Of a stretch of 64,000 nt of DNA, positions 993 to 21,707 are shown piece by piece. Below the pieces are notes generated by a model. It worked only from the letters and a program-made list of their open reading frames with translations, made no database searches and was not told the origin of the DNA. Source of the DNA: Bacillota bacterium. Its GTDB lineage: Bacteria > Bacillota > Proteinivoracia > UBA4975 > VEMY01. Every line of letters begins with the position of its first letter. The first letter of the stretch is position 1. The translations under genes were made by a program, and so were the position numbers. Location: NCBI GenBank assembly GCA_009711825.1, contig VEMY01000050.1, forward strand, positions 1 to 64,000, given 5' to 3'.

Positions 993-2012
993 GTGGTTAC
1001 GATTAAAGATGTTGCTTTGCGGGCTGGTGTTTCCGCCAGTACCGTTTCGAGAGCTTTAAGCGGTAAAATTCCTGTGGACCCGGCTACCCGGGACAGGGTG
1101 CTCCAGGCGGTGGAGGAGCTGGGCTACCGACCCAATGTCATTGCTCAGGGTTTAAAATTCGGTCGTTCCCAGACCATCGGTCTGATAATACCCAGCATCC
1201 GGAACTTGGTGTTTCCCGATGCAGTGCAGGGGATATCCCAGGTTGCTCGGGAGCGGGGATATAATGTAATACTTTGTGACAGTGAGGAAGACCCGGAGCT
1301 GGAGCGGGAATTAGTGGATAATTTGCACCGGCGTTTGGTGGATGGGTTGATTCTTTCTACCGCCCGGGGCAATGGTGAACATATTGAAGCATTGCGTAAG
1401 GCCGGGTGTCCGGTTGTGCTTTTGCTCCGGCATCTGGGCGCCTCTGTGGATGCTGTTATCGCTGACAATTACCAGGGTGGGCAGCTGGCGGGCAACTTCC
1501 TTGCCGACCAGGGGTTTCGGAAGCTGGCAATAGTAAGCGGGCCTCGGGATTTGGATTTGTTTCAGCAAAGATTTCAGGGGTTTGTCGATGCACTGAAAGA
1601 AGCCGACTTGGTTGTGCCCGAGCCAATGATTGTCCAGGCCACATCCGCATGGCAGGAATCGTACAAAGGGATGTTGGCGCTGTTGGACAGGGGTTCGGTG
1701 CCGGAAGCGGTTTTCGCCACCAGCGATCCCCAGGCTCTGGGCGTAATGAAAGCGATTCGGGAGCGGGGATTACGGGTGCCGGACGATATCTCCGTCCTGG
1801 GCTTTGATAATCTGGAACACTCATCATTGATGGACCCACCCTTAACCACCATCAGTCAACCCTTTTTTGAGATGGGCCGCCGGGCGGCCCAGCGCCTGTT
1901 TGAACTGCAGGTTGCAAAAAAGCCTCTGCCCCCCAATGTGGAGAAACTGCCTGTGGAGTTGGTGGTCAGGGATTCGGTTCGGATTACAACTGAGACGGGA
2001 GTGAGAGTGTGA
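993..2012 (+). CDS. LacI-family transcriptional regulator of the catabolic operon
   Basis: This is a 339-aa LacI/GalR repressor. The N-terminal helix-turn-helix and hinge read [20 protein letters not shown] and then [13 protein letters not shown] periplasmic-binding-protein-like effector domain follows ([41 protein letters not shown]). The start chosen is GTG 993 with AAGGGGAG at 979; the frame is open further upstream, but that part has no similarity to the family. Its last four bases overlap the next gene (GTGA), so it is translated as part of the operon. It likely senses a sugar-derived inducer of the pathway. A LacI-type operator sits just upstream. Confidence 0.93.
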
Positions 2013-3103
2013 AAGCAAAGGCAATGGTCCTGGAGGAGTTTAACAAACCTTTAGTGCTTCGCGATTTTGAAATCCCCCATCCGAAGCCGGGGCAGCTGCT
2101 GGTACGGATGTTGGCTGCCGGGGTTTGCGGCTCCGACCTACATATGTACCAAGGAGAGGATCCCCGCACCCCCCTGCCCCTGATTTTGGGCCACGAGGGA
2201 GTGGGGCGCATCGAAGCAATTGGCGATGAAGCCGTCAGCGTCTGCGGTCGGCGGCTGCAAACGGGCGACGTTGTTCTCTGGAACCGGGGTGTGAGTTGCG
2301 GACGCTGCTGGTATTGCCAGATCCTGAAACAACCGGCCCTTTGTACTCAGCGTCAGGTCTACGGCATCAATTTGGGGTTGAACGACCCGCCGGGATTGAA
2401 TGGTTGCTATTCTGAATATATTTTGCTGCGGGAACGGACCGATTTGTTTTACGTTCCCCCGGGCGTGGATCCGGCAGCGCTGGTCTCGGCGGCGTGCTCT
2501 GGTGCTACAGTTGCCCATGGTTACGAGCTGGCGCCAGTCGGGCCTGAAGACACTGTGGTGGTCCAGGGCCCCGGTCCCTTGGGTATCTGGGCGGCGGCAA
2601 TGGCCCGGGTACTGGGCGCCGGCCAAGTAATTGTCATTGGCGGTTCTCCAGAGCGCCTGGAGCTTTGCAAACGCTTTGGTGCCACCGGTGTGCTCAATCG
2701 CCGGGAGACTTCTGTTGGTGAGCGTCAGCAAGAGATTATGGCCCTGACCGATGGGCGCGGAGCGGACCTGGTCGTGGAGGCCACCGGCCATCAGAGCGCG
2801 TTTATTGAGGGAGTTGAGCTTTTGCGTCGGGGTGGCACCTATCTCTGCACCGGCTATGCTCAACCGGTGGGGACTGCGGACCTAGACCCGTACCGACATT
2901 TGGTGGGAAGGGGCGTGAAAATTCAGGGTGTGTGGGTCAGCGACACTGCTCATGTGCGGCAGGCGTTGGCTCTGGCCCTGCGGAATCCGGAGCATTTCGC
3001 GCAAATGGTCACCCTTCGTTTGCCATTGGAACGGGCCAACGAAGCCCTGGCGGCGGTAGCTGCTAAACAGGCCCTGAAAGTGATTCTGGAGGTGGGAGCA
3101 TGA
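2009..3103 (+). CDS. Zinc-dependent medium-chain alcohol/polyol dehydrogenase
   Basis: This 364-aa MDR-family protein has the catalytic zinc ligands C40 and H62-E63 (GHEGVG), and a structural zinc lobe with C97, C100, C103 and C112. The Rossmann nucleotide-binding glycine motif is VVQGPGPLGIWAAAMA, followed by VIVIGGSPERLELCKRFGA, which points to NAD(P). Such enzymes oxidise a secondary hydroxyl of a polyol or sugar derivative. GTG start 2009 overlaps the regulator by four bases, and the stop overlaps the flavoprotein ATG. The substrate is unknown. Together with the Gfo/Idh/MocA enzyme downstream it gives the operon two separate NAD(P)-dependent dehydrogenases. Confidence 0.9.
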   Translation: MKAKAMVLEEFNKPLVLRDFEIPHPKPGQLLVRMLAAGVCGSDLHMYQGEDPRTPLPLILGHEGVGRIEAIGDEAVSVCGRRLQTGDVVLWNRGVSCGRCWYCQILKQPALCTQRQVYGINLGLNDPPGLNGCYSEYILLRERTDLFYVPPGVDPAALVSAACSGATVAHGYELAPVGPEDTVVVQGPGPLGIWAAAMARVLGAGQVIVIGGSPERLELCKRFGATGVLNRRETSVGERQQEIMALTDGRGADLVVEATGHQSAFIEGVELLRRGGTYLCTGYAQPVGTADLDPYRHLVGRGVKIQGVWVSDTAHVRQALALALRNPEHFAQMVTLRLPLERANEALAAVAAKQALKVILEVGA

Positions 3104-4878
3104 ATGAATATAGCTGCGATGTACTTGTAGTCGGGGGAGGGGGCGGTGCCCTCAGAGCAGCAATTGCCCTGGCTGAGGAGCATCCCGAGTTAAAGGTTCT
3201 CCTGGCCACCAAGGGACAGCTGGGAAAAAGCGGAGTAACCGCGGTTGCCTGTTCAGACCGGATGGCGTTTCATGCCACTCTACCCCATACACCGCCCGGG
3301 GGGGAAGATGCCTGGCGCTACCATGCGGAAGATATATATCGAATCGGCGGCTGTGTGTCCGACCCTGAGTTGGCGGCAATTCTCGCCAAAAACTCCGGTG
3401 ATGCGTTTCAGTACCTGGACGCGCTGGGGGTGCCCTTTGTCAAGGAGGGCACTGTGCCCCGGCAGTTTGTGACCGACGGCTCCGAGTATCCTCGGGCCTG
3501 TTACACCGGACCGCGCACAGCAGTGCATATCGAGGAAGCGCTGGTGCGTCGGTTTCACGCGCTTAACATACCAGTGCTGGAGCAGTGTATGGTTACACGC
3601 TTGCTCACGGATACGGCCGGAATCAATGGGGCCCTGGCCCTGCTGGGCGGAAGGGTTGTGCCAATCAGTGCAGGCGCGGTAATTCTCGCCACCGGTGGCG
3701 CCGGACTTATTTATCAGCAGCATGTGTTTCCACCCGGGATGACCGGCGATGGTTATGCCATGGCGCTGCGGGCAGGTGCGGAGTTGGTAAATATGGAGTT
3801 TATCCAAATGGGAGTGGCCTCGGTAAAGACCCGGCTTAACTGTTCCGGCAGTCTATTCCGGGCCCTGCCACGGCTGGTTGACGATAGCGGGCGTGAGTTT
3901 CTTTCCGAATATACTGGGGAAATGACGGTTGGCGACCGCTTGTCGCTTCTCTTCCGCAAAGGCGCCAGCTGGCCGGTGAGTAATGAGCATGATACCAAGT
4001 TGATTGACATCGCTGTTTACCGGGAACAAATGGCCGGTCGCCGGGTGTTCCTGGACTTTGGCGCCAACCCCGCGGGGTATGACTTTGAGGCCCTGCCGGC
4101 AAGTGACCGTAAGCGCTATCAGGATGAAATGGTCGTCGATTTGGGCAGTGCCCGAGACCAGACGCCCCTGGCCCGGCTCCAGGAAATCAATCCCGATTCC
4201 ATAGCCTGGCTGCGGGAACACGGAGTTGACTTGGAGGCAGGGGATGCGATGGAGATTGCCCTCTGCGGCCAGCACTTCCAGGGCGGGATTAAAATTGACA
4301 ATCAGGGGCAGACAATTGTGCCCGGACTCTATGCTGTTGGCGAGACCGCTGGTGGCCAGCATGGCGCCAACCGGCCTGGGGGCAACGCACTTTTAGACAG
4401 TCAGGTCTTTGGCTTTCTCGCTGCCCGGTCGGCGGCAGAACGGGCACGGGAACACAAGCAGACATCTGTAAGTGCGGCTGCAATCAAGGATGCCCAGCAT
4501 CAATTGGCGGCAGCCGGGGGATACAAGCCGCAGGAGTTCAGGGAGCGGCTTCAGCAGGTGGTTTACCGTGCCGGCGCGGTCGTACGCACCGAAGCCGGGC
4601 TCAAGCAGGGGCTGGCTGACTTAGAGGAATTGACTGCCAAGGGCATGGTGGCCGGGGACCCGGTATTGATTGCCGAAAACCATAATTTACTGCTGGTGGC
4701 CCGGGCGGTGTTGACGGCTGCCCTGTGCCGGGACGAAAGCCGGGGACCACATCTGCGTTTCGAGGATGCAGCCGGGACCCGGCCGTTGAAACGCCGGGAT
4801 CCGGAGTGGCAGAAATATATTATTATCAGCGGCGATGAGGCAGCGTTAAAGCTTGCTGTTCGCATGCCAGGGAGTTGA
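3100..4878 (+). CDS. FrdA/SdhA-like FAD-binding oxidoreductase
   Basis: This 592-aa protein belongs to the fumarate reductase/succinate dehydrogenase/L-aspartate oxidase flavoprotein family. It has the N-terminal dinucleotide-binding motif DVLVVGGGGGALRAAIAL, the substrate-domain loop TGPRTAVHIEEALVRR, and the FAD-binding signature GGQHGANRPGGNALLDSQVFG, then a helical C-terminal domain. No signal peptide or heme-binding domain is present, so it is probably cytoplasmic. It overlaps the dehydrogenase upstream (ATGA at 3100) and is followed within 5 bp by the Old Yellow Enzyme gene, so the two flavoproteins may act in sequence on an unsaturated or alpha,beta-dehydro intermediate. The substrate cannot be read from sequence. 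Confidence 0.85.
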   Translation: MNEYSCDVLVVGGGGGALRAAIALAEEHPELKVLLATKGQLGKSGVTAVACSDRMAFHATLPHTPPGGEDAWRYHAEDIYRIGGCVSDPELAAILAKNSGDAFQYLDALGVPFVKEGTVPRQFVTDGSEYPRACYTGPRTAVHIEEALVRRFHALNIPVLEQCMVTRLLTDTAGINGALALLGGRVVPISAGAVILATGGAGLIYQQHVFPPGMTGDGYAMALRAGAELVNMEFIQMGVASVKTRLNCSGSLFRALPRLVDDSGREFLSEYTGEMTVGDRLSLLFRKGASWPVSNEHDTKLIDIAVYREQMAGRRVFLDFGANPAGYDFEALPASDRKRYQDEMVVDLGSARDQTPLARLQEINPDSIAWLREHGVDLEAGDAMEIALCGQHFQGGIKIDNQGQTIVPGLYAVGETAGGQHGANRPGGNALLDSQVFGFLAARSAAERAREHKQTSVSAAAIKDAQHQLAAAGGYKPQEFRERLQQVVYRAGAVVRTEAGLKQGLADLEELTAKGMVAGDPVLIAENHNLLLVARAVLTAALCRDESRGPHLRFEDAAGTRPLKRRDPEWQKYIIISGDEAALKLAVRMPGS

Positions 4879-4882
4879 GATA

Positions 4883-6202
4883 ATGAGCAAGCACTTTCCC
4901 TACAAGTCGGCGGACCAACTGGCAGCAGATTGCCGGGAGCGAGGCCTGGATCTAAGCGTCACTGAGGAAATCAGTCTCTTGACTGAACCAGTGGCAGTTG
5001 CCGAACGTCGACTGGATAATCCGCTTGTGATTCAGCCGATGGAAGGATGTGATGGCACAGCCGATGGCCGACCGTCAGAATTAACTCATCGACGGTATCA
5101 ACGGTTTGCCGCTGGCGGCGCTGGTCTAATCTGGTTTGAAGCAACTGCCATCACCCGTAACGGACGGGGCAATCCGCGTCAGTTATGGCTTAATCCGCAC
5201 ACACTGGATAGTTTTAGCGATTTAGTTGCTTCCACCCGCTCTCAGGCGACAGGCAATCCGATTTTGCTCTTGCAGCTGACCCATTCCGGGCGCTACAGTC
5301 GGCCCGTTGGAGTGCGGGCGCCGGTGTTTGCCTTCAGAGATCCCCAGCTGGACCAGCGCACCAATGTGACCAGAGAGCATGTGCCAATATCTGACCAAGA
5401 GCTGACGGAGCTGCAACAGCAGTTTGTGCAGGCGGCAGTTTTGGCAAAAGCGGCCGGTTTTGATGGCGTGGATATAAAGGCCTGCCACCGCTACCTGGTA
5501 TCAGAACTGTTGGCTGGCCACACGCGGCCGGGCGGTTACGGAGGCAGTTTGGAAGGTCGGACCCGGTTTTTGCGTGAAACAGTGGCGGCTGTCCGGCAGG
5601 CGGTGGGCGAGGATTTTATTCTGGCGACACGGCTTAATGTCTGGGATGCGGCCCCCTGGCCCTACGGTTGGGGTGTCACGGAAGGGAGCCCGGAGCAACC
5701 GGAGCTTTCTGAGGCCCGTTGGCTGGCGGCTGATTTGTCTGAGCGCGGCGTTTCTATAATTAATGTCACTGCCGGAAACCCCTATGTGCTGCCCTACATC
5801 GGACGTCCGTTTGACAAGCCGGTGATCGGGGGCGCTCTTCCTGCAGAACATCCCCTCACCGGCGTAGAGCGGTTGCTTGGCTTTGCCGCAGAGATTCAGA
5901 GTGAGGTGCCGGAAGTGGCTGTTGTTGGCACCGGGTACTCCTGGTTGAGGCAGTACTTCCCCCAGGTGGCAGCAGCAGAGCTTGCCCGTGGACGTTCCCG
6001 CCTAGTGGGGTTGGGTCGAATGGCATTTGCCTGTCCGGATTTCCCCCTGCAGTTGGCAGCGGGAGAGCTGGAGCCCGGAAATTTGTGCACAGCTTGCAGC
6101 ATGTGCACCCAGATTATGCGGGACGGTGGCCGTACCGGCTGTGTGGTCAGGGACAGCGACGTATATCTTTCGGAATACAGGGCCGGTCACGCAAAAGCCT
6201 GA
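4883..6202 (+). CDS. Old Yellow Enzyme family NADH:flavin oxidoreductase
   Basis: This 439-aa FMN TIM-barrel ene-reductase carries NPLVIQPMEGCDGT, LLLQLTHSGRYSRP, GFDGVDIKACHRYLVSELL and GYGGSLEGRTRFLRE, all standard for the family. The C-terminus keeps a cluster of cysteines (CTACSMC followed 12 residues later by C), as in the [4Fe-4S] site of 2,4-dienoyl-CoA reductase-type members. The extra FAD/NAD domain of those enzymes is absent, so electrons must come from a partner. ATG 4883 is chosen because GGGAG precedes it; the longer frame from 4853 lies inside the previous gene. The function is inferred as reduction of a conjugated C=C generated in the pathway. Confidence 0.85.
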   Translation: MSKHFPYKSADQLAADCRERGLDLSVTEEISLLTEPVAVAERRLDNPLVIQPMEGCDGTADGRPSELTHRRYQRFAAGGAGLIWFEATAITRNGRGNPRQLWLNPHTLDSFSDLVASTRSQATGNPILLLQLTHSGRYSRPVGVRAPVFAFRDPQLDQRTNVTREHVPISDQELTELQQQFVQAAVLAKAAGFDGVDIKACHRYLVSELLAGHTRPGGYGGSLEGRTRFLRETVAAVRQAVGEDFILATRLNVWDAAPWPYGWGVTEGSPEQPELSEARWLAADLSERGVSIINVTAGNPYVLPYIGRPFDKPVIGGALPAEHPLTGVERLLGFAAEIQSEVPEVAVVGTGYSWLRQYFPQVAAAELARGRSRLVGLGRMAFACPDFPLQLAAGELEPGNLCTACSMCTQIMRDGGRTGCVVRDSDVYLSEYRAGHAKA

Positions 6203-6239
6203 TTGGTCGCTGAGTTGAATATATAAGGAGGGGTGGCGA

Positions 6240-7229
6240 ATGACGGTAAAAATAGCGATGGTTGGTTTGGGGCGTTGGGCGATGTTTTTGGGCGCAGCGC
6301 TGATGGAGACTGAAGGTGTTGAACTGACGGGCGGGTATGATTCCAGTTTGCAGAGTGCCGAAAACTTTGCCGAGATGTTTGAGGTGCCGGCGGTGGCAGA
6401 CTTGGCGGCAATTGCCGGCGATCCTGAGGTTGACGCTGTAGTGGTGGCCACCGCCAACCACACCCATCATCAGGTGGTTAAGACTTTGCTACAGGCAGGC
6501 AAGGATGTGTTTGTGGAGAAGCCGCTGGCTAACTCTTTGGCGGAGTGCCGGGAACTGATTGACCTTGCCCGGGAGCGCAAGCGAGTTCTGATGGTCGGCC
6601 ATAATTCCCGGCGCTATCCGGCTGTGCGCAAACTTAAGGAACTGATAGATGCCGGGAAAATTGGCCAGGTGCATTCAGCGACCGCGATATTTTCTTACGA
6701 GAATCTGGCCGATATCAGCACCGATACCTGGCGCAACGATCCCGCCAAATGTCCCGGTGGGCCCTTGATGCAACTGGCTGTGCATCAGGCAGATAATTTG
6801 CTCTGGTTGCTGGGGCCGGTTGAGTCGGTGAGCTGTCAGCTGATGGCACCCGTTCCAGGAGGGAAAGTGCCGGCCGGCGGACGTCTGGGCCTGAAATTTG
6901 CGTCCGGCGCCCTAGGGGTGTTGGAAAGCGATTATCTCACTACCCCCGAGAGTTTCAGCATCACTTTGCGGGGTGAAAAGGGTGAGTTCCAAAGTCGAGG
7001 GCCGGGACATGTGAAAATCTGGGATAGCAGCGGCCAAGTGGAATCACTGGACTTAGGGCGAGACGATTCGCTTCGCCAACAGATGGCTGAATTTGTCGCC
7101 TGTGTCCGGGACCGGGTCCCCCCGGAAACCGGAGGCGAAGTGGGCATCGCTGCCCTTGCTCTGATTGTTGCAGGGCTGGAGTCCGCTGAATTGGGCCGTC
7201 CTGTGGAAGTGGGTGGTTACGATGATTAA
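6240..7229 (+). CDS. Gfo/Idh/MocA-family dehydrogenase
   Basis: This 329-aa protein has an N-terminal Rossmann domain (MVGLGRWAMFLGAAL), the family motif E93-K94-P95, and the catalytic helix GGPLMQLAVHQAD with H182. Members oxidise or reduce sugar carbons with NAD(P). In C- and O-glycoside cleavage clusters, a homologue (DgpA type) makes the 3-keto sugar that allows elimination of the aglycone. AGGAGGGG precedes ATG 6240. The stop overlaps the next gene by 8 bp. The presence of DUF6379-like and TIM-barrel proteins in the same operon supports such a 3-oxidation role, but that is inference. Confidence 0.9.
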   Translation: MTVKIAMVGLGRWAMFLGAALMETEGVELTGGYDSSLQSAENFAEMFEVPAVADLAAIAGDPEVDAVVVATANHTHHQVVKTLLQAGKDVFVEKPLANSLAECRELIDLARERKRVLMVGHNSRRYPAVRKLKELIDAGKIGQVHSATAIFSYENLADISTDTWRNDPAKCPGGPLMQLAVHQADNLLWLLGPVESVSCQLMAPVPGGKVPAGGRLGLKFASGALGVLESDYLTTPESFSITLRGEKGEFQSRGPGHVKIWDSSGQVESLDLGRDDSLRQQMAEFVACVRDRVPPETGGEVGIAALALIVAGLESAELGRPVEVGGYDD

Positions 7230-9330
7230 GCGCTTAACTCCGGGTCGGATTATAGCCCTGGTTGTGGTGCTGGCCCTGTTGGGCGGTGGCATTTACCTGG
7301 AGCGCAGCCTGTATGTTGCACCTGAGTGGCCGCCCCCCCGGGAAGGGGACCCCCAGCCGGTCCGGCCCACTGCTGATGATCCTGAGTTTCATCGCACCCC
7401 GTTTGCCGAGACCTTCGAAGAGCGGCGTGAGCTCTATGTAGAGTGGGCTACCCAGCAACCGACACCGGATTCCCGGAACTCAATCTGGGCTGAATTGATG
7501 AAGATAGAGGCGGGGCAGGATTATTTTCCGGAGGCGACCATGGACTGGTTGCTGGACTTTGTCAATGCCCGCAATGATTGTGCTGATTTTGTGGTGGCAG
7601 GTCTGATCCGTCTTTACTACATGTACCCGGAAGTGCTTTCAGCCCAGCAAGAGCAGGCACTTCGTAATACACTCCTGGATTTCCAGTACTGGTTGGATGA
7701 GCCCAACCCCGATAAGGGTGCCATGGAATTATGGACTGAGAATCATCAGATTCTGATCTATACTTCTGAGTATTTGGCCGGCCAGTTGTTTCCCGAAGAG
7801 ACATTTACCAATAACGGCATGTCCGGCGTGGAGCGCATGGAAAACGCCCGCCCGAAGATTATGCGCTGGATAGACTGGCGGGTGCGCACCGGCTTTGCCG
7901 AGTGGGATTCGATTCCTTACTACCCTGAAGATATTGCCTCGCTGGCAAACATCGTGGACTTTGCCGGCGATGAAGAGCTGGCTTTACATGCTGAAATGTT
8001 ATTGGACTTGTTATTGTTTGATGTGGCAGTGGACTCTTTTTATGGCCAGTTTGCCACCTCCCACGGCCGGGCCTCCGGCCATCATGTGCAAAGCGCTGCC
8101 GGCGATTCCATGGTTTCAGTTCAGGCATTGCTCTTGGGCTTGGGACGTTTTCAGTCCAACAGCAATATGGGAGTCGTTTCGCTGGCCCTGAGCGAGAATT
8201 ACCGCCTGCCGCCGGTTATTGAGGCGGTAGCTTTGGACATGCCTGAGGAAATGATAAATTATGAGCGCCATTCGATTCCGGTGACCAAAGAGGAGGCCGA
8301 GAGGCGAGGTTTGAGCATGGATTCCCCTGAGGATATCGACATCTGGTGGGGTATGGGCGCCTTTACCCATCCTTTGGTCATTGATCAGACGATTGCCCTG
8401 GCCGGTGAATGGGACCTATGGCATTACCCGGATTTTAAAGACTTTGAGGTCTTGGGCAAGGTTTTGGGCAGAATCAATGCTTTAGGGCTAGCCAGCAGGC
8501 TGCTGGATCCTGATCCCAACGGTACATTGATGTCTGAAGTCAATAAAGTCAGCTATCGCACGCCGGACTATATGCTCAGCAATGCCCAGGATTATCGTCC
8601 GGGAGAAAAGGGCTACCAACAGCATATCTGGCAGGCGACCCTTGGTCCCTATGCACGGGTCTTTGTCACTAATCCCGATTCGCTGCGTTCAGATGGGCAT
8701 CGCCCCAGCTATTGGGGTTCCCACGGCCGCCTGCCCCGGACTGCTCAACATGAAAATGTGCTGGTAGCTGTGCATAAAATCGGTCGCTATCAGGGATTGT
8801 TGGAGGCCAGGCATTTTGCCTTCACCCATGCCTACTTCCCCCGCTGGGCCTTTGATGAAGTGGTGGAAGTGCCGGTGGACGACGGTAGCGGCTGGGTGTT
8901 TGGCTGCAAGGATGATGGTTATGTGGCCCTCTACAGCCACCTGCCCTATCGCTGGCAGGATGAAGGTATAGACGCCGATCAGGAAATCATCGCCTTGGGC
9001 CGGGAGAATGTCTGGATTACCCAAATGGGGCGCCGGGCGGTGGATGGCGATTTTGAGGACTTTGTCGCCGCGGTGAGTAATGCACCGCTGGCAGTCGATG
9101 ATTTACAGGTAAATTATAAAGCCCCAGGCGTGGGCGAGGTTGAATTTGGCTGGGAAGGACCGTTCATGGTGGACGGTCAGGAAGTTTCGCTACGAGATTA
9201 TCCCCGCTGGGAAAATCCCTACACCCAGGCCGCCTTTGATTCCCGCGAGTTTTTAATCCGGCATAACGGTCTCGAATTACACCTGGATTTTGACCGCAAT
9301 CTCCGCTACCTGGGTCAGGAGGAGAACTAA
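7222..9330 (+). CDS. Membrane-anchored large protein, paralogue A; possible glycan lyase/hydrolase
   Basis: This is a 702-aa conserved protein of no family I can name. Residues 9-26 form a single hydrophobic anchor (RIIALVVVLALLGGGIYL) followed by a Pro-rich stretch, so the body is expected outside the membrane. The middle is helical and rich in aromatic/charged motifs (MELWTENHQILIYTSEYLAG, WIDWRVRTGFAEWDSIPYY, TSHGR). A C-terminal third rich in beta-type sequence (RTAQHENVLVAVHKIG, FTHAYFPRWAFDE) follows. This resembles the alpha-toroid plus beta-sandwich layout of polysaccharide lyases, without a detectable catalytic signature. ATG 7222 overlaps the previous stop. The next gene encodes a soluble paralogue. 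Fold and role are inferred. Confidence 0.6.
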   Translation: MIKRLTPGRIIALVVVLALLGGGIYLERSLYVAPEWPPPREGDPQPVRPTADDPEFHRTPFAETFEERRELYVEWATQQPTPDSRNSIWAELMKIEAGQDYFPEATMDWLLDFVNARNDCADFVVAGLIRLYYMYPEVLSAQQEQALRNTLLDFQYWLDEPNPDKGAMELWTENHQILIYTSEYLAGQLFPEETFTNNGMSGVERMENARPKIMRWIDWRVRTGFAEWDSIPYYPEDIASLANIVDFAGDEELALHAEMLLDLLLFDVAVDSFYGQFATSHGRASGHHVQSAAGDSMVSVQALLLGLGRFQSNSNMGVVSLALSENYRLPPVIEAVALDMPEEMINYERHSIPVTKEEAERRGLSMDSPEDIDIWWGMGAFTHPLVIDQTIALAGEWDLWHYPDFKDFEVLGKVLGRINALGLASRLLDPDPNGTLMSEVNKVSYRTPDYMLSNAQDYRPGEKGYQQHIWQATLGPYARVFVTNPDSLRSDGHRPSYWGSHGRLPRTAQHENVLVAVHKIGRYQGLLEARHFAFTHAYFPRWAFDEVVEVPVDDGSGWVFGCKDDGYVALYSHLPYRWQDEGIDADQEIIALGRENVWITQMGRRAVDGDFEDFVAAVSNAPLAVDDLQVNYKAPGVGEVEFGWEGPFMVDGQEVSLRDYPRWENPYTQAAFDSREFLIRHNGLELHLDFDRNLRYLGQEEN

Positions 9331-11319
9331 ATGTCCGCCGGTGGACAGTCCCCCCGGCGGCCCCAGCCTGGGGACAGGCCTTTTCACAAGGTTCCCCTGG
9401 CAGAAACTTATGGAGAGCGCCAACGCTTGTTTCTGGACTGGGCCACTGAGCACCCGACTCCGGACGATCTCTATGCCATCTGGGCTGAGATTTGCAAGCT
9501 GGCCCGGGGCGCGGCAGCCATTGCCGGGAAGACCTTAGATTTTGCCCTGGAATTTGTGGACGCCCGCCGGGACTGCGCCGATTTTATCGTTGCCGGCTTA
9601 ATCCGGGCGCTCTACTGCTATGGCCAGAATTTGCCCGGGGAGCAGAGGGAGGCAATTGCCCGCTCGCTCTTGGGCTTCCAATACTGGTTGGATGAGCCCA
9701 ATCCCAATTTGGGCGCAATGGAGCTCTGGACCGAGAATCACCAGATTCTCATCCACAGCAGCGAGTATCTTGCTGGCCAGCTTTTCCCCGACCAGGTTTT
9801 TGCCAACGGCATCACCGGTCGGGAGCGGATGGTCCAGGCCCGGGAGCGGATTTGTAAATGGATTGACTGGCGGGTGCGCACTGGTTTTGCCGAATGGGAT
9901 TCAATTCCCTACTATCCGGAGGACCTGGCTGCCCTGCTGAATCTGGCGGACTTTGCCCAGGATCAGGAGCTGGCTCGCCAGGCGACAATGTTGGTGGACC
10001 TAATCCTGTTTGATGTGGCGGTGGACTCGTTTTATGGCCAGTATGGATCCAGCCACGGCCGGGCCTATGACGAACATATCAAGAGCGCTGCCGGTGATAC
10101 AATGGTCACCCTCCAGGCCCTGCTCTGGGGAATGGGTAGGTTTCAGACCAATAGCAATATGGGAAGTGTCGCCATGGCAACCAGCAGTTACCAAATGCCT
10201 GCTGTGTTGGAAGCAATCGGTCAGGACATGCCTGACGAAATGACGAACCGGGAACGGCATTCCATCGAGGTGGAGGCAGCGGCCGACTGGGATCTGCACT
10301 TTGACAGCGATGAAGATATCCGCATTTGGTGGGCAATGGGTGCCTTTACCCATCCCAAAGTGATAAAAAAGACTATGGAGCTGGCCGGCCGTTGGCAATT
10401 TTGGCATTATAGCGATTTCCGACCATTTCGCGCCTTGGCCCGGGTCCTGGGAACGCTGGGGCTGCTGGGTTTTGCCAGCCGGGTGTTCGATCCAGATCCC
10501 AACGGGGTGTTGATGTCCGAGGTAAACAAACTTACCTTTCGCACCCCCGATTACATGCTCTCCAACGCTCAGGACTGGCGCAAAGGGCAGAAGGGTTATC
10601 AGCAGCATATTTGGCAGGCGACCTTGGGTCCTTATGCCGTTGTGTTTGTGACCAATCCCGATTCCCTGGAAGTGGGTGACGCCAACCGGCACCGTCCCAG
10701 CTATTGGGCTTCCCACGGGCGTCTGCCCCGGACTGCCCAGTACCGCAATGTTCTGGTGGCTGTGCATAAAATCCCCGCCCGCAAAGGACTGTTGGAAGCA
10801 CGCCACTATACTTTCACCCATGCCTATTTTCCTCGCTGGGCCTTTGATGAGCTGGTGGAAGTGCCGGCAGCGGGCGGTGGCGGCTGGATTTTTGGTCGCA
10901 AGGATGAGGGGTATATTGCTTTCTACAGTCACCTGCCCTATCAGTGGCAGCAGCAGGGGATTGATGCCGACCAGGAGGTTATTGCCCCAGGGAGGGAGAA
11001 TATTTGGATTACTCACTTGGGACGCCGGGCGGTGGACGGCAATTTCACTGATTTCGTCCACCGGGTGAGTCGCGCCCCATTGACAGTAGATGGTCTGCAG
11101 GTGGAGTACGAGGCCCCAGGAGTAGGGTGCATCCACTTTGGCTGGCACGGCCCGTTAACTGTAAACGGCGCTGAGGTTTCGCTGCGGGATTACCCTCGTT
11201 GGGACAACCCCTACGCCCAGGTTCCCTTTGATTCCCGGGAGTTCACAATTGAGCACAATGGTTTGCATCTACATTTGAATTTCCCGCGCAGTCTGCGGCA
11301 ATTCAACTCCCAGGCATAG
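9331..11319 (+). CDS. Soluble paralogue B of the preceding large protein
   Basis: This 662-aa protein aligns with paralogue A along almost its whole length, sharing for example FQYWLDEPNPN, MELWTENHQILI, WRVRTGFAEWDSIPYYPED, DVAVDSFYGQ, RTPDYMLSNAQD, GYQQHIWQATLGPYA and DSREF. It lacks the N-terminal membrane anchor and begins MSAGGQSPRRPQPG, so it should be cytoplasmic. ATG 9331 follows the previous TAA directly, with AGGAGGAG as ribosome binding site. Tandem duplication with different localisation suggests the same chemistry on an outside polymer and on an imported fragment, or a heteromer. The catalytic residues are unknown; conserved His/Tyr/Arg in TSHGR/SSHGR and HRPSYW are candidates. 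Confidence 0.6.
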   Translation: MSAGGQSPRRPQPGDRPFHKVPLAETYGERQRLFLDWATEHPTPDDLYAIWAEICKLARGAAAIAGKTLDFALEFVDARRDCADFIVAGLIRALYCYGQNLPGEQREAIARSLLGFQYWLDEPNPNLGAMELWTENHQILIHSSEYLAGQLFPDQVFANGITGRERMVQARERICKWIDWRVRTGFAEWDSIPYYPEDLAALLNLADFAQDQELARQATMLVDLILFDVAVDSFYGQYGSSHGRAYDEHIKSAAGDTMVTLQALLWGMGRFQTNSNMGSVAMATSSYQMPAVLEAIGQDMPDEMTNRERHSIEVEAAADWDLHFDSDEDIRIWWAMGAFTHPKVIKKTMELAGRWQFWHYSDFRPFRALARVLGTLGLLGFASRVFDPDPNGVLMSEVNKLTFRTPDYMLSNAQDWRKGQKGYQQHIWQATLGPYAVVFVTNPDSLEVGDANRHRPSYWASHGRLPRTAQYRNVLVAVHKIPARKGLLEARHYTFTHAYFPRWAFDELVEVPAAGGGGWIFGRKDEGYIAFYSHLPYQWQQQGIDADQEVIAPGRENIWITHLGRRAVDGNFTDFVHRVSRAPLTVDGLQVEYEAPGVGCIHFGWHGPLTVNGAEVSLRDYPRWDNPYAQVPFDSREFTIEHNGLHLHLNFPRSLRQFNSQA

Positions 11320-11330
11320 ACAGGCAGTTA

Positions 11331-11348
11331 CTTCCGGCTTTCCGGAAG
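11331..11348. other. Intercistronic hairpin
   Basis: CTTCCGG and CCGGAAG form a perfect 7-bp stem with a 4-nt loop in the only sizeable gap of this part of the operon. No T run follows, so it is more likely an RNA processing or stability element separating the paralogue pair from the DUF6379-like gene than a terminator. Confidence 0.4.
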
Positions 11349-11376
11349 CAAAAATAATTTATCAGGAGGGGTACTG

Positions 11377-11742
11377 ATGGAAATTCCTGCTTTCATGCTC
11401 AAAAAGCTCTACAAGAAAGGTTCGTTGACCAACACCGATGGCGGCGTCAGCTTTATCGTCAAGAACTCAATCTCGCCGGCAACAATAATCGGACTCGATC
11501 AATTGCTCATCGATGGCGAAGAGGTTGAAATCGCCAAGGTAAAGCTGATTACCAGCAAGAGTGAAGTAAATGCCGCTGAAATAACCGAGGAGCAGTCCCT
11601 GCATGTGAATTGGAATGACGCAATTACTTTGGTGGTGGATGGTCTGACTCTGGCGTCAGGCAGCCACAAATTGGCATTGACAATTAACACCCGGGACGTG
11701 GGCCCCCTGACTTTGGAGGTCAGCGACACCCTCGCCGGGTAG
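11377..11742 (+). CDS. Small DUF6379-like protein (C-glycoside deglycosidase beta-subunit type)
   Basis: This 121-aa protein begins MEIPAFMLKKLYKKGSLTNT, continues FIVKNSISPATIIGLDQLLIDGEEV, and ends in HKLALTINTRDVGPLTLEVSDT. The pattern of short beta strands, a GSLxNT opening and a closing NTRDVGPLxLEVSDT matches, from memory, DUF6379 proteins, the small beta-sandwich partner of TIM-barrel C-glycoside deglycosidases. No signal peptide. AGGAGGGG precedes the ATG. The operon also holds a xylose-isomerase-like barrel (15257) that could be the alpha partner, although the two genes are separated here. If the assignment is wrong it is an orphan small beta protein. Confidence 0.55.
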   Translation: MEIPAFMLKKLYKKGSLTNTDGGVSFIVKNSISPATIIGLDQLLIDGEEVEIAKVKLITSKSEVNAAEITEEQSLHVNWNDAITLVVDGLTLASGSHKLALTINTRDVGPLTLEVSDTLAG

Positions 11743-11748
11743 CAGAAA

Positions 11749-13749
11749 ATGAACGACACAAAAGCGCTTGTCCTGGAAACGGTCACTGGGCTAGCCCGAT
11801 TTCTCCATGGCTGCCAGGTAATAACCGGGGATATTGAGGTGGATGTGCCGGATGGGGAAACAATCAGCGTGGATTATCAGTTTCTGCGCCGGGACCCCGG
11901 CCCCTATCCCCTGGAAGTGCGCCGCCAGGGCGCCGATATCTGGCTGCGGGCAATTGAATCGGAAGCATGGCATGGTCCCCTGGTGGCCGACAGCTTTGTC
12001 CGGGTGTTCCCGGGGCGGGGAATTCGCAACCCCGCCCGGGGGGGCGGCGGCATTACTTTCCGCTACCCTGGCGGCGCAGAAACAGGCCGGGTGATCTTGG
12101 AGGCCTATGACCGGGGAGGAATTTGGGACGATTTGCCCAATATGGAGGTATTTATCTACGAACCCCAGGTGGCGGCCACCTTTTACGCCGATGCCTATTC
12201 GGCCTGGATTTTTGCCTGGCTTGCATCTCGGGGCGAGAAACAGTACCGGGAGCCGGCGGCCATGGCCCTGGATTTTGTCCAGCGCATTTATCCGGTCTAT
12301 ACGCCGATGATCATGGACGGACTCAACCACAGCGATTTTAAGAATCCGGCCTTTATCGAGGCAGTGGAAGAACTGGCGGTGGATTGGGCCCAGCCGGAGC
12401 AGCTGGAGCGCTGGCGAAAGCTTTTCCCAGGGATGGTTAATGATGACGCCTACTCCCCCACCAATGTCCACGCCCTGCGCTATCACTGGAGGGCAGTCCG
12501 CCAGTATTACACAGGACTGACCGGAGCCGAACCCCAGCAATATCTGAAACGAGTCTTTGCCGACGCAACTGACGACGGTTTGATTCACGACAATAATACA
12601 TCGGAGCTTTCCTTTGGCGGCCACACCGACGCCCACGATTTGACCTATCATTTGTATACCTTGGCCTGTCTTGTTCGGGGCTATCAATATCTGCCCCTGC
12701 CGGAAGTGCTGGCAACCATTGAACGGGGCGCAAACTTCAGTTTGTCCCTGACAACTTCCGGCGGCGAGGTATCGTATCTCGGCCGTGGCGCCAACAATGT
12801 CTATCATCTGGCCTCGGCATTTTACACCTTTGCGTTTATGGCCAAACAGCAGGTAGAGCAGGCGGGACGTTTCCGGCGTGCAGCGACGTTAATCCTCAAC
12901 TATATACGTGGCTTTCAACAGGAGAGCGGAGAGATTGCCACTGCTCTCAACCGCTACCCCGAGGAGCGGATGGGCTGGAATCACTGTCATACTCCCTACA
13001 ACGGGCTTACCGCCTATTTGTTGGCACAGGCTTTGCCTCTGTTGACTGAGGAAGGTGAGCAAAGTCTGGTGCTAGAGGGTAAGGCGAAGCTCCTTTACCC
13101 CGAGGCGCGATACGCTGCCGTCAGCACGAAAGATTACTATGCGGTATTCTTTGGCGGCAATGCTCTGTCTTACCCCTGGTCGGGTTGTCATAAGACAGGG
13201 GTGGCTGGACTTGCTCATCTTGGTGTCCAGGGACGTCCGGGCCAGCTGCCGATACTTGAGCAGTCGCTGCGGGAAGGCGAGTGGTCCACCGGTGACCTAC
13301 CGGATGTTGTCAGCGCTGATGGCGATACAGCCGTGCCGGCAGGTCTGGGCAGCTTGCAGGAGGAAGCTGACGGCTTCTCCCTGGAACTGGAATACGGCGG
13401 CTTTCAGGCGCGGCAAGTTTACCGTCCAGAGGCCAATGGGCTGCTGCTTGAGACAACACTAGTCTGTTTGAATCCTGGGCATTATCAATTGGCTGGACTG
13501 CCAACCATTTCGGTTTTGGTTGATTCGGGCTGGCGGCACGAGGTTTCCGACAAGTTGGTTACGTGCTCTGGGCCCAACGGCAATTTGCGTTTAGAGGTGC
13601 TGGACGTTTCTGAGCCCGGGGAATGGCAAACCTTTGAAGAATCATCTACAGCCCGGGGGCTGCATTCCAAACTGGCCCGGGTTGTGGACCGGGAGTTTAG
13701 CGTCGGAGACACACTCACCTGTCGCGTCAGGATTACGGTGGGAATTTAA
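11749..13749 (+). CDS. Large protein with probable helical-toroid plus C-terminal beta domain; function unknown
   Basis: This 666-aa cytoplasmic-looking protein has no signal peptide. Residues about 1-130 are beta-rich. The central part (about 140-430) is helical with toroid-like segments (YADAYSAWIFAWLASRGEKQ, RYHWRAVRQYYTGLTG, GGHTDAHDLTYHLYTLACLV, RMGWNHCHTPYNGLTAYLLA). The C-terminal 200 residues are beta-rich (YYAVFFGGNALSYPWSG, FQARQVYRPEANGLLLETTL). This is the layout of heparinase-II/III-like lyases and of unsaturated-glycan hydrolases, but it shares no clear sequence motif with them or with the paralogue pair upstream. It sits between the DUF6379-like gene and the sugar transporter, so it probably acts on the imported glycan. 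Function is not assigned. Confidence 0.5.
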   Translation: MNDTKALVLETVTGLARFLHGCQVITGDIEVDVPDGETISVDYQFLRRDPGPYPLEVRRQGADIWLRAIESEAWHGPLVADSFVRVFPGRGIRNPARGGGGITFRYPGGAETGRVILEAYDRGGIWDDLPNMEVFIYEPQVAATFYADAYSAWIFAWLASRGEKQYREPAAMALDFVQRIYPVYTPMIMDGLNHSDFKNPAFIEAVEELAVDWAQPEQLERWRKLFPGMVNDDAYSPTNVHALRYHWRAVRQYYTGLTGAEPQQYLKRVFADATDDGLIHDNNTSELSFGGHTDAHDLTYHLYTLACLVRGYQYLPLPEVLATIERGANFSLSLTTSGGEVSYLGRGANNVYHLASAFYTFAFMAKQQVEQAGRFRRAATLILNYIRGFQQESGEIATALNRYPEERMGWNHCHTPYNGLTAYLLAQALPLLTEEGEQSLVLEGKAKLLYPEARYAAVSTKDYYAVFFGGNALSYPWSGCHKTGVAGLAHLGVQGRPGQLPILEQSLREGEWSTGDLPDVVSADGDTAVPAGLGSLQEEADGFSLELEYGGFQARQVYRPEANGLLLETTLVCLNPGHYQLAGLPTISVLVDSGWRHEVSDKLVTCSGPNGNLRLEVLDVSEPGEWQTFEESSTARGLHSKLARVVDREFSVGDTLTCRVRITVGI

Positions 13750-13801
13750 CTGGCCCTTGCAGGCGCAGGGCAAACATCTGAAATTAAGGGAGAGGATTTG
13801 T

Positions 13802-15256
13802 TTGGCCGAGATGCAAAATAAGCATAGGCTGCCTCTGCTCACCAAACTGATTTACGGTTCGGGAGATATGTTTGGCGGCGGTTCCCTGATGTTAATAGGC
13901 TTCTTTTATCTGTTCTTCATGACTGAGGTTGCAGGGTTGAATCCGGGTCTTGCGGGTATGGTTCTGCTTCTGGGCAAGGGCTGGGATGCTGTCAGCGACC
14001 CGTTGATGGGTTGGCTCAGTGACCGCACCCGCAGCCGCTTTGGTCGGCGCCGGATTTACTTTCTGGCCGGGATTGCACCGATTTTTATCTGTTTTACACT
14101 GCTCTGGATGGTGCCGCCCTTTAGTTCCCAGATTGGCACTTTCCTGTTCTTTTTAACTGCGAATGTATTGTTTAACACTACCCTTACCATGGTAATGATT
14201 CCGTACAATGCTTTGGTTCCCGAGCTTACTCCCGATTATGACGAGCGTAGTTCGCTCACCGGTTTCCGACTGGCATTTTCCAATATCGCTTCATTGCTTT
14301 CGGCAGCGGTGCCAATGCTGATCGTCGATGCCTTCGCTAGTCCTGCCAATGGTTACCTGGTAATGGCGATGACTTTTGGCCTGCTTTTTGCCCTGCCATT
14401 CTTGGGCGTGTTCTTGGTAAGTTTTGAGACCACAAAAGAGGTTTCCAAAAGCCGGTTTAATCTGCTGGGGGATGTCACCCAGGCTCTGTCCAATCGTTCT
14501 TTCCGGCGTTTGGTCGGCGTTTACCTGCCCACTTTTCTGGGCGTTGATGTTATCTCTGCGGTTATGGTCTACTACTTAACCTATGTTCTGGGGCGGGGCG
14601 AGGGCATGCAGGTGTCTATGGTTCTTGGTCTCTTGCTCTTGTGTCAGACCCTGGCGTTGCCCGTGTATGTAAAGATAGCCCGCACACGGGGCAAGCATGT
14701 CTCATACACAACAGGCGCGCTGATTTGGATGATACTACTGCCGGTGCTCTGGTTCTTTACGCCGGAGACTCCATTCGCCGTGGTCTTGGTATTGGCAGCC
14801 ATGGTGGGGATGGGGACGGCCGGTGCGGGCTTCAGCCCGTGGGCGATGTTCCCGGATGTAATTGATGTGGATGAGTTGGTTACTGGCAAGCGGCGGCAGG
14901 GTATTTATTCTGGGGTCATGACTTTCATGCGTAAAATCTCTTCGGCCCTGGCTCTGGCTGTTGTTGGCTGGATGATTGACTGGTCTGGTTACATCGCCAA
15001 TGATGACACAATTGCCCAACCGGATGGTTTTCTGACCATGGTCCGGTTTTTGGTGGCGGTATTCCCCATCTTCTTGGTGTTGACCGGTCTTTGGTTCTGT
15101 CGCCGTTATCCCTTGAATCAACAGCGACACGATAAGTTGCGCAACATCCTGGCAACCCGGCCCGCAGGCACCGCCGACCTCAGCGGCGAAGCCGGTGAGC
15201 TGGCCGACTTGCTTTATGGGCCGCTACCTGACGATATTAATAACGAGGTGAGTTAA
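13802..15256 (+). CDS. GPH-family (glycoside-pentoside-hexuronide) cation symporter
   Basis: This 484-aa, 12-helix transporter has the family signature near its N-terminus: LIYGSGDMFGGG, then DAVSDPLMGWLSDRTRSRFG with RRR, and NVLFNTTLTMVMIPYNALVPE. Such proteins bring glycosides or uronides in with Na+ or H+. The start chosen is TTG 13802, six bases after GGGAGAGG; ATG 13811 is possible but badly spaced, and the frame upstream to 13634 overlaps the preceding gene. It is the only transporter of the operon and implies uptake of a small oligosaccharide or glycoside rather than a polymer. Confidence 0.9.
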   Translation: MAEMQNKHRLPLLTKLIYGSGDMFGGGSLMLIGFFYLFFMTEVAGLNPGLAGMVLLLGKGWDAVSDPLMGWLSDRTRSRFGRRRIYFLAGIAPIFICFTLLWMVPPFSSQIGTFLFFLTANVLFNTTLTMVMIPYNALVPELTPDYDERSSLTGFRLAFSNIASLLSAAVPMLIVDAFASPANGYLVMAMTFGLLFALPFLGVFLVSFETTKEVSKSRFNLLGDVTQALSNRSFRRLVGVYLPTFLGVDVISAVMVYYLTYVLGRGEGMQVSMVLGLLLLCQTLALPVYVKIARTRGKHVSYTTGALIWMILLPVLWFFTPETPFAVVLVLAAMVGMGTAGAGFSPWAMFPDVIDVDELVTGKRRQGIYSGVMTFMRKISSALALAVVGWMIDWSGYIANDDTIAQPDGFLTMVRFLVAVFPIFLVLTGLWFCRRYPLNQQRHDKLRNILATRPAGTADLSGEAGELADLLYGPLPDDINNEVS

Positions 15257-16090
15257 GTGTCTGTTCTTTTAGGCGTTGTAACCGATGAAGTCTCCCAGGA
15301 TCCTGTGTACGCGCTGGATTGGGCCCGGAAACATCGCTTAGATTATGTCGATATCCGCGATGTCTGGGAGCTGAATATCGCTGAGCTTAGTGAGCAGCAA
15401 CTGGCTACATTGGAAAAGCTATTGGTTGATTCGGATTTTAAGGTGAAGACGATTTGCCCCCAGCTGTTTCGGGCGGAACTTGATCCAGAGGCGGTGACCC
15501 GGGTCACTGCCAATCCGGATTTAGTTGCCACAGACCCCAGCGAGTATGCCGAGCATTTACGGCTGCTGCTCCATAGTCTGGAATTGGCCGAGCGGCTGGA
15601 CGCTCCCTATGTGCGCTGCTTCGGGTTCTGGCGGGAAGAAGAGCCTGAGGATGTCTGGGATACACTGGTGAGCGCGTTCCGGTTTGCGGCAGATTTAGCC
15701 ACCAAGCGGGACAAGATCTTGCTTTTGGAGAACGAGGCAATGACCTATGCCATTTCCGGCAGTGAGGCTGCACAGGTGATAAACGCTGTTGACAGTCCAT
15801 CCTTTGCTGCAATTTGGGATCCGGCTAATGGATTTTTCCATCCGGAAACTCCTTTCCCTGATGGTTATATCGCCCTCGGTGATCTAATCAAAGTTGTGCA
15901 CGCCAAGGACGCCGGTGCCCAGGGGTTCACTGTCATTGGCCAGGGGGAGTTGGATTGGGAGGGGCAAATTAAGGCCTTGAAACAGTTTGATTCAGTTTGT
16001 GTCTCGGTGGAACCACGTACCGCTCCTGACGACGGCACGCTGGAGCAAGCTTCCGGAGCGATTCTAGACTGGCTGCGGGCTCGGATTTAA
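15257..16090 (+). CDS. Xylose-isomerase-like TIM-barrel protein; candidate deglycosidase alpha subunit or sugar epimerase
   Basis: This 277-aa AP-endonuclease-2-superfamily barrel has the usual metal ligands in order: E158 in LLENE, D188 in WDPAN, H215 in VVHAKD and E252 in VEPR. Relatives include sugar isomerases/epimerases, inosose dehydratases and the alpha subunit of C-glycoside deglycosidases. GTG 15257 directly follows the transporter stop, with GAGGTGAG as ribosome binding site. It is the last gene of the operon. With the DUF6379-like protein and a Gfo/Idh/MocA enzyme present, a role in eliminating the aglycone from a 3-keto sugar is attractive; isomerase activity is the alternative. 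Confidence 0.8.
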   Translation: MSVLLGVVTDEVSQDPVYALDWARKHRLDYVDIRDVWELNIAELSEQQLATLEKLLVDSDFKVKTICPQLFRAELDPEAVTRVTANPDLVATDPSEYAEHLRLLLHSLELAERLDAPYVRCFGFWREEEPEDVWDTLVSAFRFAADLATKRDKILLLENEAMTYAISGSEAAQVINAVDSPSFAAIWDPANGFFHPETPFPDGYIALGDLIKVVHAKDAGAQGFTVIGQGELDWEGQIKALKQFDSVCVSVEPRTAPDDGTLEQASGAILDWLRARI

Positions 16091-16417: not shown

Positions 16418-16888
16418 ATGCTAAAGTGGAACCCGCTGATTAAATTCGTTGTTTTACTGTTATTTTGGCTTGTTATTTCCGGGGAGTTGGACTGGCAGCA
16501 TGTTGTAGCCGGTTGCGGCGCCGCCCTTTTAGTCATGCTTTTTTGGCGGCGCAAAGGGGAGAATGAGGAACTGTTTGGGATTAATGCGGTGTTTTATGCG
16601 CTGGCCCTCGCCCTGGTGATGCTGGTGGATATTTGCCGGGCTGCGTGGCATGTGGCAATTATCATTCTCACTCGTCGACCGATACAGCCGCAGTTTGTGC
16701 ATTTGGATACACCGCTGCGTTCCCGCTTGGCCCGGGTTTTACTGGCCAATTGTATCACCCTTACCCCCGGCACGCTGTCGGTGTCCCTGGAGGGAAATAC
16801 GCTGCTGGTGCATGCGCTAACTGATGAGCATGCCCAATCCCTGAACGGAGGCCGGGTACAAAGAATCTTGATGAAGATGGAGGGATGA
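16418..16888 (+). CDS. mrpE: Mrp antiporter subunit E (MbhA-like)
   Basis: This 156-aa membrane protein opens with two or three hydrophobic helices and then has the MrpE-type cytosolic part with RRPIQPQFVHLDTPLRSRLA and NCITLTPGTLSVSLEGNTLLVHAL, which is diagnostic of MnhE/MrpE. It is the first gene of a compact operon of ten antiporter genes; the AAGGAGG-type site at 16403 precedes its ATG. MrpE is an accessory subunit needed for full antiport by the complex. In archaeal Mbh the equivalent gene, mbhA, is also first. Confidence 0.93.
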   Translation: MLKWNPLIKFVVLLLFWLVISGELDWQHVVAGCGAALLVMLFWRRKGENEELFGINAVFYALALALVMLVDICRAAWHVAIIILTRRPIQPQFVHLDTPLRSRLARVLLANCITLTPGTLSVSLEGNTLLVHALTDEHAQSLNGGRVQRILMKMEG

Positions 16889-16891
16889 CAG

Positions 16892-17158
16892 ATGGCCGAT
16901 TGGACAACCATGATAATAACTTTAATTACTGGTTTATTGATCTTTCTTTCATTGGCCCGGACGTTGTCCTCGCCAGGGGTAACCGATAAATTGGTGGCGG
17001 TAAACATCATCACCACCAAGACGATTATACTGATTGTCTTGCTCAGTGAACTGTTTGAGAGTTGGTTTTATCTTGACGTTGCGCTTGTTTATGCCCTTTG
17101 CAGCTATGCGGCAACTGTAGCCGTGCTTAAGGGGCAGGTCCGGCAGCGGCTGGATTAA
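16892..17158 (+). CDS. mrpF: Mrp antiporter subunit F (MbhB-like)
   Basis: This 88-aa protein has three transmembrane helices and the MrpF core SSPGVTDKLVAVNIITTKTI, followed by YLDVALVYALCSYAA. It begins three bases after mrpE, and the AGGG ribosome binding site lies inside the end of mrpE. MrpF forms part of the ion-translocating membrane sector with E and G. Confidence 0.93.
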   Translation: MADWTTMIITLITGLLIFLSLARTLSSPGVTDKLVAVNIITTKTIILIVLLSELFESWFYLDVALVYALCSYAATVAVLKGQVRQRLD

Positions 17159-17171
17159 GGGGGAGATTGAA

Positions 17172-17474
17172 ATGGATTGGCTGTATGTAATTTTGCTGGC
17201 AATCGGCTGTTTCTACTTATTTACAGCGACAATTGGTTTGTTTATGCTTCCTGATGTATTTACCCGCCTCCATGCCACGACAAAATGTGACACCATGGGC
17301 GCTGGCTGCATTCTGGCCGCAGTAGCGGTTAAGTCGGGAAATTGGTTCGTTGCCGGCAAACTGGCTTTGATTTTTGTGTTTATATTACTAGTCAGCCCGA
17401 CTGCTTCACATATGATTGCCTGGGTGGCAAAAGAGCAGCTACCCAAAAAAGCCTCTGAAAAGGAGGCGGGGTAA
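17172..17474 (+). CDS. mrpG: Mrp antiporter subunit G (MbhC-like)
   Basis: This 100-aa protein has three helices and the MnhG signature LPDVFTRLHATTKCDTMGAG and a C-terminal SPTASHMIAWVA. GGGGGAG precedes the ATG. Its TAA overlaps the ATG of the following gene by one base. Confidence 0.93.
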   Translation: MDWLYVILLAIGCFYLFTATIGLFMLPDVFTRLHATTKCDTMGAGCILAAVAVKSGNWFVAGKLALIFVFILLVSPTASHMIAWVAKEQLPKKASEKEAG

Positions 17475-17713
17475 TGGACAACTTGTTCTTGTTTATGTTT
17501 CTTACCTTTCTGTTGGTTGCATCAATTTCGGTTTGCCTGATTCGCAAGGTTCTACACGCTGTGATTGTATTTGGCATATACAGTTTGGTAATGTCCATCG
17601 TTTGGTTGCAATTGGGTTCGCCCGATCTGGCTATTACCGAAGCCGCCGCCGGTATCGGAATGAGCATTATAATGGTGGCGGTTGTCACCAAACTGGGGAG
17701 GGAGTGCCAGTGA
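17474..17713 (+). CDS. DUF4040/MbhD-like subunit (equivalent to part of the MrpA C-terminus)
   Basis: This 79-aa, three-helix protein contains RKVLHAVIVFGIYSLVMSIV and LGSPDLAITEAAAGIGMSII, the DUF4040 motif found in the C-terminal part of bacterial MrpA and as the separate subunit MbhD of archaeal hydrogenase complexes. Here it is a separate gene, so MrpA is split as in Mbh. The glutamate in ITEAA is the conserved buried carboxylate of this family. Confidence 0.85.
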   Translation: MDNLFLFMFLTFLLVASISVCLIRKVLHAVIVFGIYSLVMSIVWLQLGSPDLAITEAAAGIGMSIIMVAVVTKLGRECQ

Positions 17714-18409: not shown

Positions 18410-18411
18410 CA

Positions 18412-20233: not shown

Positions 20234-20248
20234 TTAGGGGGCGTCCAA

Positions 20249-21691: not shown

Positions 21692-21707
21692 GGGAGGGGG
21701 GCGCAAA

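Follow-up and report, generated by a model that had tools for sequence, protein, structure and literature searches.

Eleven genes at positions 993 to 16090 of a 64,000-nucleotide stretch from a Bacillota bacterium (contig VEMY01000050.1, positions 1 to 64,000; hereafter the window) were analysed and probably constitute an operon for the catabolism of uronides, that is, uronic-acid oligosaccharides. Two related proteins, referred to here as TorA and TorB, would make 4,5-unsaturated uronides and the redox genes of the operon would probably process the product. The family at the core of the operon is new and widespread, and is predicted to be lyase-like and to act in uronide catabolism. The combination of genes is undescribed in the sources searched, which supports the first-pass annotation of this DNA in its proposal of an undescribed operon for glycan or glycoside catabolism. 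The features of the operon are listed below.

953 to 980, + strand: LacI-type operator-like repeats TGCAAACGATTGTGCA (953-968) and TGCAAAGGATTGTGAA (965-980), directly upstream of the LacI gene, predicted from sequence
993 to 2012, + strand: LacI-family regulator (Pfam LacI, 3.2e-19; Peripla_BP_3, 3.1e-37)
2009 to 3103, + strand: Zn-dependent dehydrogenase of sugar/polyol type (Pfam ADH_zinc_N, ADH_N)
3100 to 4878, + strand: FrdA/NadB-like flavin adenine dinucleotide (FAD) protein (Pfam FAD_binding_2, 2.5e-48)
4883 to 6202, + strand: Old Yellow Enzyme (OYE) with a Cys cluster at the C-terminus (Pfam Oxidored_FMN, 1.3e-30)
6240 to 7229, + strand: Gfo/Idh/MocA dehydrogenase (Pfam, 1.2e-32)
7222 to 9330, + strand: TorA, predicted membrane-anchored, lyase-like toroid plus beta-sheet protein (66% identity to TorB; ATG start at 7222)
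9331 to 11319, + strand: TorB, predicted cytoplasmic, lyase-like toroid plus beta-sheet protein (AlphaFold2, Foldseek and conservation; candidate residues N136, H137, Y194, R244 and H426)
11377 to 11742, + strand: small beta-sandwich protein with the fold of a C-glycoside deglycosidase (CGD) beta subunit (AlphaFold2 and Foldseek)
11749 to 13749, + strand: TorC, an orphan of 666 residues (no Pfam, NCBIfam or PDB match)
13811 to 15256, + strand: GPH-family sugar symporter (Pfam MFS_2, 1.3e-91)
15257 to 16090, + strand: AP_endonuc_2 TIM barrel, metal site read as E158, D188, H215 and E252 (Pfam, 2.8e-29; motif comparison)

The extent and strand of this LacI-led set were as first annotated, and Pfam and NCBIfam confirmed the LacI regulator, the two dehydrogenases, the FrdA-like protein, the OYE, the GPH symporter and the barrel. 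The reported lack of a hydrolase in the operon was also correct. In the NCBIfam scan the Zn-dependent dehydrogenase reached no equivalog cut-off. Successive junctions measure -4, -4, +4, +37, -8, 0, +57, +6, +61 and 0 bp, terminator-like sites inside the operon were about as frequent as expected by chance (21 against 19.6) and the first gene past it begins at 16418; we strongly infer a single transcript. Allowing up to three mismatches, the operator-like repeat had three matches in the window (0.58 expected), two of them just upstream of the LacI gene. The three large proteins had been described as belonging to no named family, and none had a match in Pfam or NCBIfam. They are not three of a kind, however: TorA and TorB form one duplicated family, whereas hhalign showed no relation of TorC to either (probability 0.1). 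A tree of 66 family members resolved TorA and TorB as a local duplication with support of 100/100.

Evidence for uronide catabolism came from the gene neighbourhoods of toroid relatives, among which both loci with GH88, KduI and KduD and GH88-free redox sets were found. Glycoside hydrolase family 88 (GH88; Pfam 9.8e-89) was encoded directly beside the toroid, on the same strand, by 13 of 101 adjacent genes, compared with 2 of 666 other nearby genes (p = 1.5e-10, a value that overstates independence). Examples include plasmid loci of the Rhodobacterales Pseudosulfitobacter (GH88, TRAP transporter, KduD, LacI, KduI, toroid), Gemmobacter (GH88, KduI, toroid, ABC transporter, KduD, kinase) and Thioclava (toroid, GH88, ABC transporter, LacI, KduD, KduI), and pRL12 of Rhizobium johnstonii (toroid RL_RS36345, GH88 RL_RS36350, GH28, ABC transporter). 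Since the substrate of GH88 must be a 4,5-unsaturated uronide (PMC8511951), the toroid family is predicted most likely to produce such uronides, by lyase or dehydratase chemistry.

Profile and structure searches of the large proteins yielded a polysaccharide lyase (PL)-like fold for TorB and no sequence-profile match, with TorC left as an orphan. The AlphaFold2 model of TorB, built from 66 sequences (predicted local distance difference test score, pLDDT, 94.3; predicted template modelling score 0.95), consists of a helical toroid (helices 27-393) followed by a beta-sheet domain with strands from residue 398. When this model was compared with the PDB using Foldseek, ranks 1-15 were all toroid plus beta-sheet polysaccharide lyases (PL15, PL35, PL8, PL17, PL39 and PL21); the best match was the PL15 enzyme exoHep (E = 5.7e-7) and the PL35 match was GAGase VII. 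In the predicted model the resemblance is a match of fold class and not a close superposition.

Residues D81, D84, E135, N136, H137, E188, S191, Y194, R244 and Q424 were conserved in the family, as judged from the 66-member alignment and 13 diverse relatives, and all of these except S191 were invariant in the 13; H426 was present in 61 of the 66 members. Toroid lyases carry Asn or Asn-His, a Tyr approximately 53-56 residues later and, where the beta domain begins, a His, as in PL17 (Asn201-His202, Tyr258, His413), PL15 (Asn336-His337, Tyr390, His555) and PL35 (Asn192, Tyr246, His401) (PMC4765187, PMC12088678), with Asn(/His) as the neutraliser and Tyr and the beta-domain His as acid/base (PMC12088678). 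In TorB, Y194 follows N136 and H137 by 58 and 57 residues, respectively, and H426 lies 28 residues into the beta domain. TorA and TorB resemble the PL8, PL12, PL15, PL17, PL21, PL35 and PL39 lyases in domain order, predicted fold and, as far as sequence position shows, the placement of these residues (PMC12088678, PMC4765187), but differ in having no detectable sequence relation to them and in low template modelling (TM) scores. In TorB the beta domain is also preceded by an extra stretch (approximately residues 290-395) which distant GH88-linked members do not have.

Several observations weigh against the assignment of a lyase-like role in uronide catabolism. The loci behind the GH88 statistic are related and their GH88 neighbours belong partly to one clade. 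TM-scores of TorB were only 0.16-0.31 across the first 20 Foldseek matches, a profile search of TorA and TorB against solved structures gave no link to solved lyases, and N136-H137, Y194 and H426 fit the lyase pattern by sequence position only. H426 is missing in Pseudosulfitobacter and Gemmobacter. The closest relatives (G161/L010, L016 and L017) lie outside sugar operons. For the redox branch, the argument is drawn entirely from gene neighbourhoods, and OYE-toroid pairs occurred in only 4 of 83 neighbourhood loci.

The same 4,5-unsaturated product would be obtained if TorA and TorB did not cleave chains but were non-reducing-end uronate dehydratases, like BcGDH (GH154) or P29_PDnc (assigned with PL37); we regard this as possible, if on the unlikely side. 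It would account for the tight pairing with GH88, since pairing with GH88/GH105 is also displayed by two known dehydratases in other genomes (PMC12269599, PMC8511951), and for the fact that relatives adjoin GH88 and are not the sole chain-opening enzyme. In the Foldseek search, however, lyases headed the list and a GH154-type dehydratase did not appear until rank 33 (E = 0.1), the predicted structure of TorB being different from GH154. A conserved counterpart of the catalytic Lys that P29_PDnc requires also appears to be missing: its essential residues are Arg230, Asp248 and Lys303, and, judged from conservation within the family, no Lys reached 85% in the 66 homologues. By comparison, it is very unlikely that TorA and TorB have the host's own envelope or exopolysaccharide as their target and keep company with redox genes incidentally. 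Their closest relatives do have as neighbours an acyltransferase-like gene, or genes with no sugar-related function, but TorA and TorB themselves share a LacI-led operon with a sugar importer, and an export signal is lacking in one of the two.

To return to the uronide assignment, profile searches of the host genome (99.8% complete) detected neither GH88/GH105 (PF07470) nor KduI (PF04962), with positive controls. The operon shares the toroid family, a LacI regulator and a sugar importer with GH88/GH105-KduI-KduD operons, but its host is without GH88 and KduI and has redox enzymes in their place. Because of this absence, the redox genes of the operon probably handle the unsaturated product. Recurring neighbourhoods elsewhere support the view that they are real partners of the toroid. 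GH88-free operons of toroid, TIM barrel and Gfo/Idh/MocA genes were found in Spirochaetota (L030, L053) and Haladaptatus, and an OYE gene adjoins the toroid in three Lokiarchaeota genomes and one Microthrixaceae genome; these OYEs are 41-43% identical to that of the operon. In Lokiarchaeota the best FrdA-like match in the genome (33% identity) and a Gfo gene lie within approximately 12 kb of the toroid-OYE pair. A FrdA-like relative in Occultella was rejected as a shared partner, its locus having neither toroid nor OYE. The Lokiarchaeota loci (L035, L042, L043), which have GH3 and ThuA genes as well as Gfo/Idh/MocA and FrdA-like genes near the toroid-OYE pair, are candidate archaeal glycan loci.

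The layout of the operon, the toroid family and its fold, the conserved residues, the gene contexts and the absence of GH88 and KduI were computed; the substrate, every reaction and the sequence of reactions in what follows are inferred. TorA, anchored outside, and TorB, inside, would eliminate at C4-C5 of a uronate, as lyases or non-reducing-end dehydratases, to give 4,5-unsaturated uronides, with fragments brought in by the GPH symporter. A ring hydroxyl of the unsaturated product may then be oxidised by the Gfo/Idh/MocA or the Zn-dependent dehydrogenase, isomerisation or elimination may be carried out by the TIM barrel together with the CGD-beta-like protein, and the OYE and FrdA-like proteins may reduce the conjugated double bond. 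An unsaturated uronide oxidised at C3 would be an enone and therefore the type of bond that an OYE reduces. A fully hydrolase-free version is proposed tentatively and is doubtful as a whole: C3 oxidation by the Gfo/Idh/MocA or the Zn-dependent dehydrogenase would give a C3=O/C4=C5 enone for reduction by OYE and the FrdA-like protein, the TIM barrel and CGD-beta-like protein would break the glycosidic linkage in an elimination, and these enzymes would take the place of GH88, KduI and KduD. If the redox set does replace GH88 and KduI, it would represent a second route for unsaturated uronides and an instance of elimination chemistry all the way from polymer to monomer.

The arrangement with TorA outside, TorB inside and the importer between them is predicted from sequence: an N-terminal hydrophobic membrane anchor was predicted for TorA and none for TorB. 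In Acholeplasmata, loci were found with an anchored toroid, AP_endonuc_2, a GPH symporter, a soluble toroid and GH88. The toroids of these loci were not sisters of TorA and TorB in the 66-member tree and represent a separate duplication; the layout of cutting outside, import and cutting inside would therefore have arisen twice. The Acholeplasmata locus is conserved at L054, L056, L063, L066, L068 and L071, with GH88 present where the contig reaches.

The first-pass annotation had proposed uptake of a glycoside whose aglycone is aromatic or unsaturated, and its cleavage without hydrolysis; in this reading C3 would be oxidised, the aglycone eliminated in the manner of CGDs, and the aglycone reduced by the OYE and FrdA-like proteins. 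Cleavage without hydrolysis as an idea fits the operon, which has no hydrolase and encodes a CGD-beta-like protein, a Gfo/Idh/MocA and a Zn-dependent dehydrogenase, and a TIM barrel with a metal site. The small protein (121 residues), first described as DUF6379-like, did prove to have the predicted CGD-beta fold: in a Foldseek search with its AlphaFold2 model (6 sequences, pLDDT 88.5), ranks 1-17 were all CGD beta subunits or fused CGDs (E = 1.6e-7 to 1.1e-4; TM-score to the query 0.62-0.77), followed by a clear drop. By sequence, in contrast, it fits Pfam HMG-CoA_red_N (PF25653; 9.4e-24) and reached Pfam CGDB only below the cut-off (19.2 versus 27.6 bits). Since the window member has the predicted fold of a CGD beta subunit, the Pfam name may mislead.

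The TIM barrel does not support the exact C-glycoside mechanism. The catalytic residues of CGD alpha are His149 and Glu307 in AgCGD2 numbering (PMC8563793). The motifs E-I-H and E-Y-E of the CGD alpha compared correspond to E158-N-E160 and E252-P-R254 in the barrel, so that Glu160 sits where CGD alpha and most compared relatives have the catalytic His and Arg254 replaces the second Glu. A phmmer comparison with CGD alpha from a CGDB locus gave no match, and the barrel was rejected as a CGD alpha subunit on both grounds; it is possibly another isomerase, epimerase or lyase partner. Compared with the CGDs DgpB-DgpC, CarB-CarC and DaCGD, the operon is alike in small-subunit fold, metal-site TIM barrel and Gfo/Idh/MocA, but its barrel is shorter, is without the catalytic His and second Glu, and is encoded apart from the small protein. 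Furthermore, the PF25653 homologues examined in other Bacillota had no TIM or Gfo partner beside them, and the toroid family lies with GH88, KduI and KduD elsewhere. The aglycone proposal is consequently unlikely; given the context of the toroid family, its lyase-like predicted fold and its candidate catalytic residues, a simpler source of the unsaturation is the C4=C5 bond of a uronide that the operon would produce itself. In other Bacillota, at L104, L105, L106 and L107, PF25653 makes up a small protein on its own, and the unrelated genes nearby look by eye phosphoglycerate-mutase-like, M16-peptidase-like and diacylglycerol-kinase-like.

Clusters of the E. coli ycjQRS type, which act on 3-keto-glycosides, share the combination of Zn-dependent dehydrogenase, Gfo/Idh/MocA and AP_endonuc_2, a likeness judged from gene content. 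These clusters are not known to contain toroids, an OYE or a FrdA-like protein.

TorA and TorB had no sequence match in the PDB. The family is rare in the host phylum, with relatives in 4 of 399 genomes, but when 84,980 species genomes were scanned using a small alignment, at least 541 related stretches were detected across bacteria and archaea. Relatives occurred in 199 plasmid records, and none of TorB in the viral contigs searched. Those in the annotated records examined are labelled 'hypothetical protein', and no paper on the family was found in the literature searched, a search that did not cover CAZy itself. The family spans Rhizobium plasmids, marine Bacteroidota and Lokiarchaeota, and with the predicted reaction and candidate residues hundreds of uronide loci could be annotated. 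A toroid-GH88 pair was seen at L011; this locus and L096, described below, come from the Paenibacillus-like genomes G066 and G376. Chloroflexota, including Caldilineaceae, have long toroids of approximately 860-920 residues with an extra N-terminal domain beside dipeptide-type ABC transporters (L074-L095), and some of these loci also carry a GH4 or PL26-like (PcRGLX) gene.

Searches for homologues of TorC found none in 13 genomes belonging to its class, in 50 genomes that carry toroids, in 151 Chloroflexota and 255 Planctomycetota, or in the plasmids and viral contigs covered. The sole relative found, among the 399 genomes sampled from the phylum, was a weak partial match of 137 residues (32% identity) in one Paenibacillus-like genome. 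This match is part of a DUF2264-like protein at L096, beside genes that by eye appear heparinase-like and uronyl-hydrolase-like. One may speculate that TorC is the missing exo-enzyme of the operon.

Two further features of the window were noted by eye. On the - strand at 8-442 lies the start of an ABC-transporter ATPase whose frame apparently shifts after approximately 36 residues, and after the operon, at 16418-23576 on the + strand, there is a gene set resembling a Mrp-type Na+/H+ antiporter.

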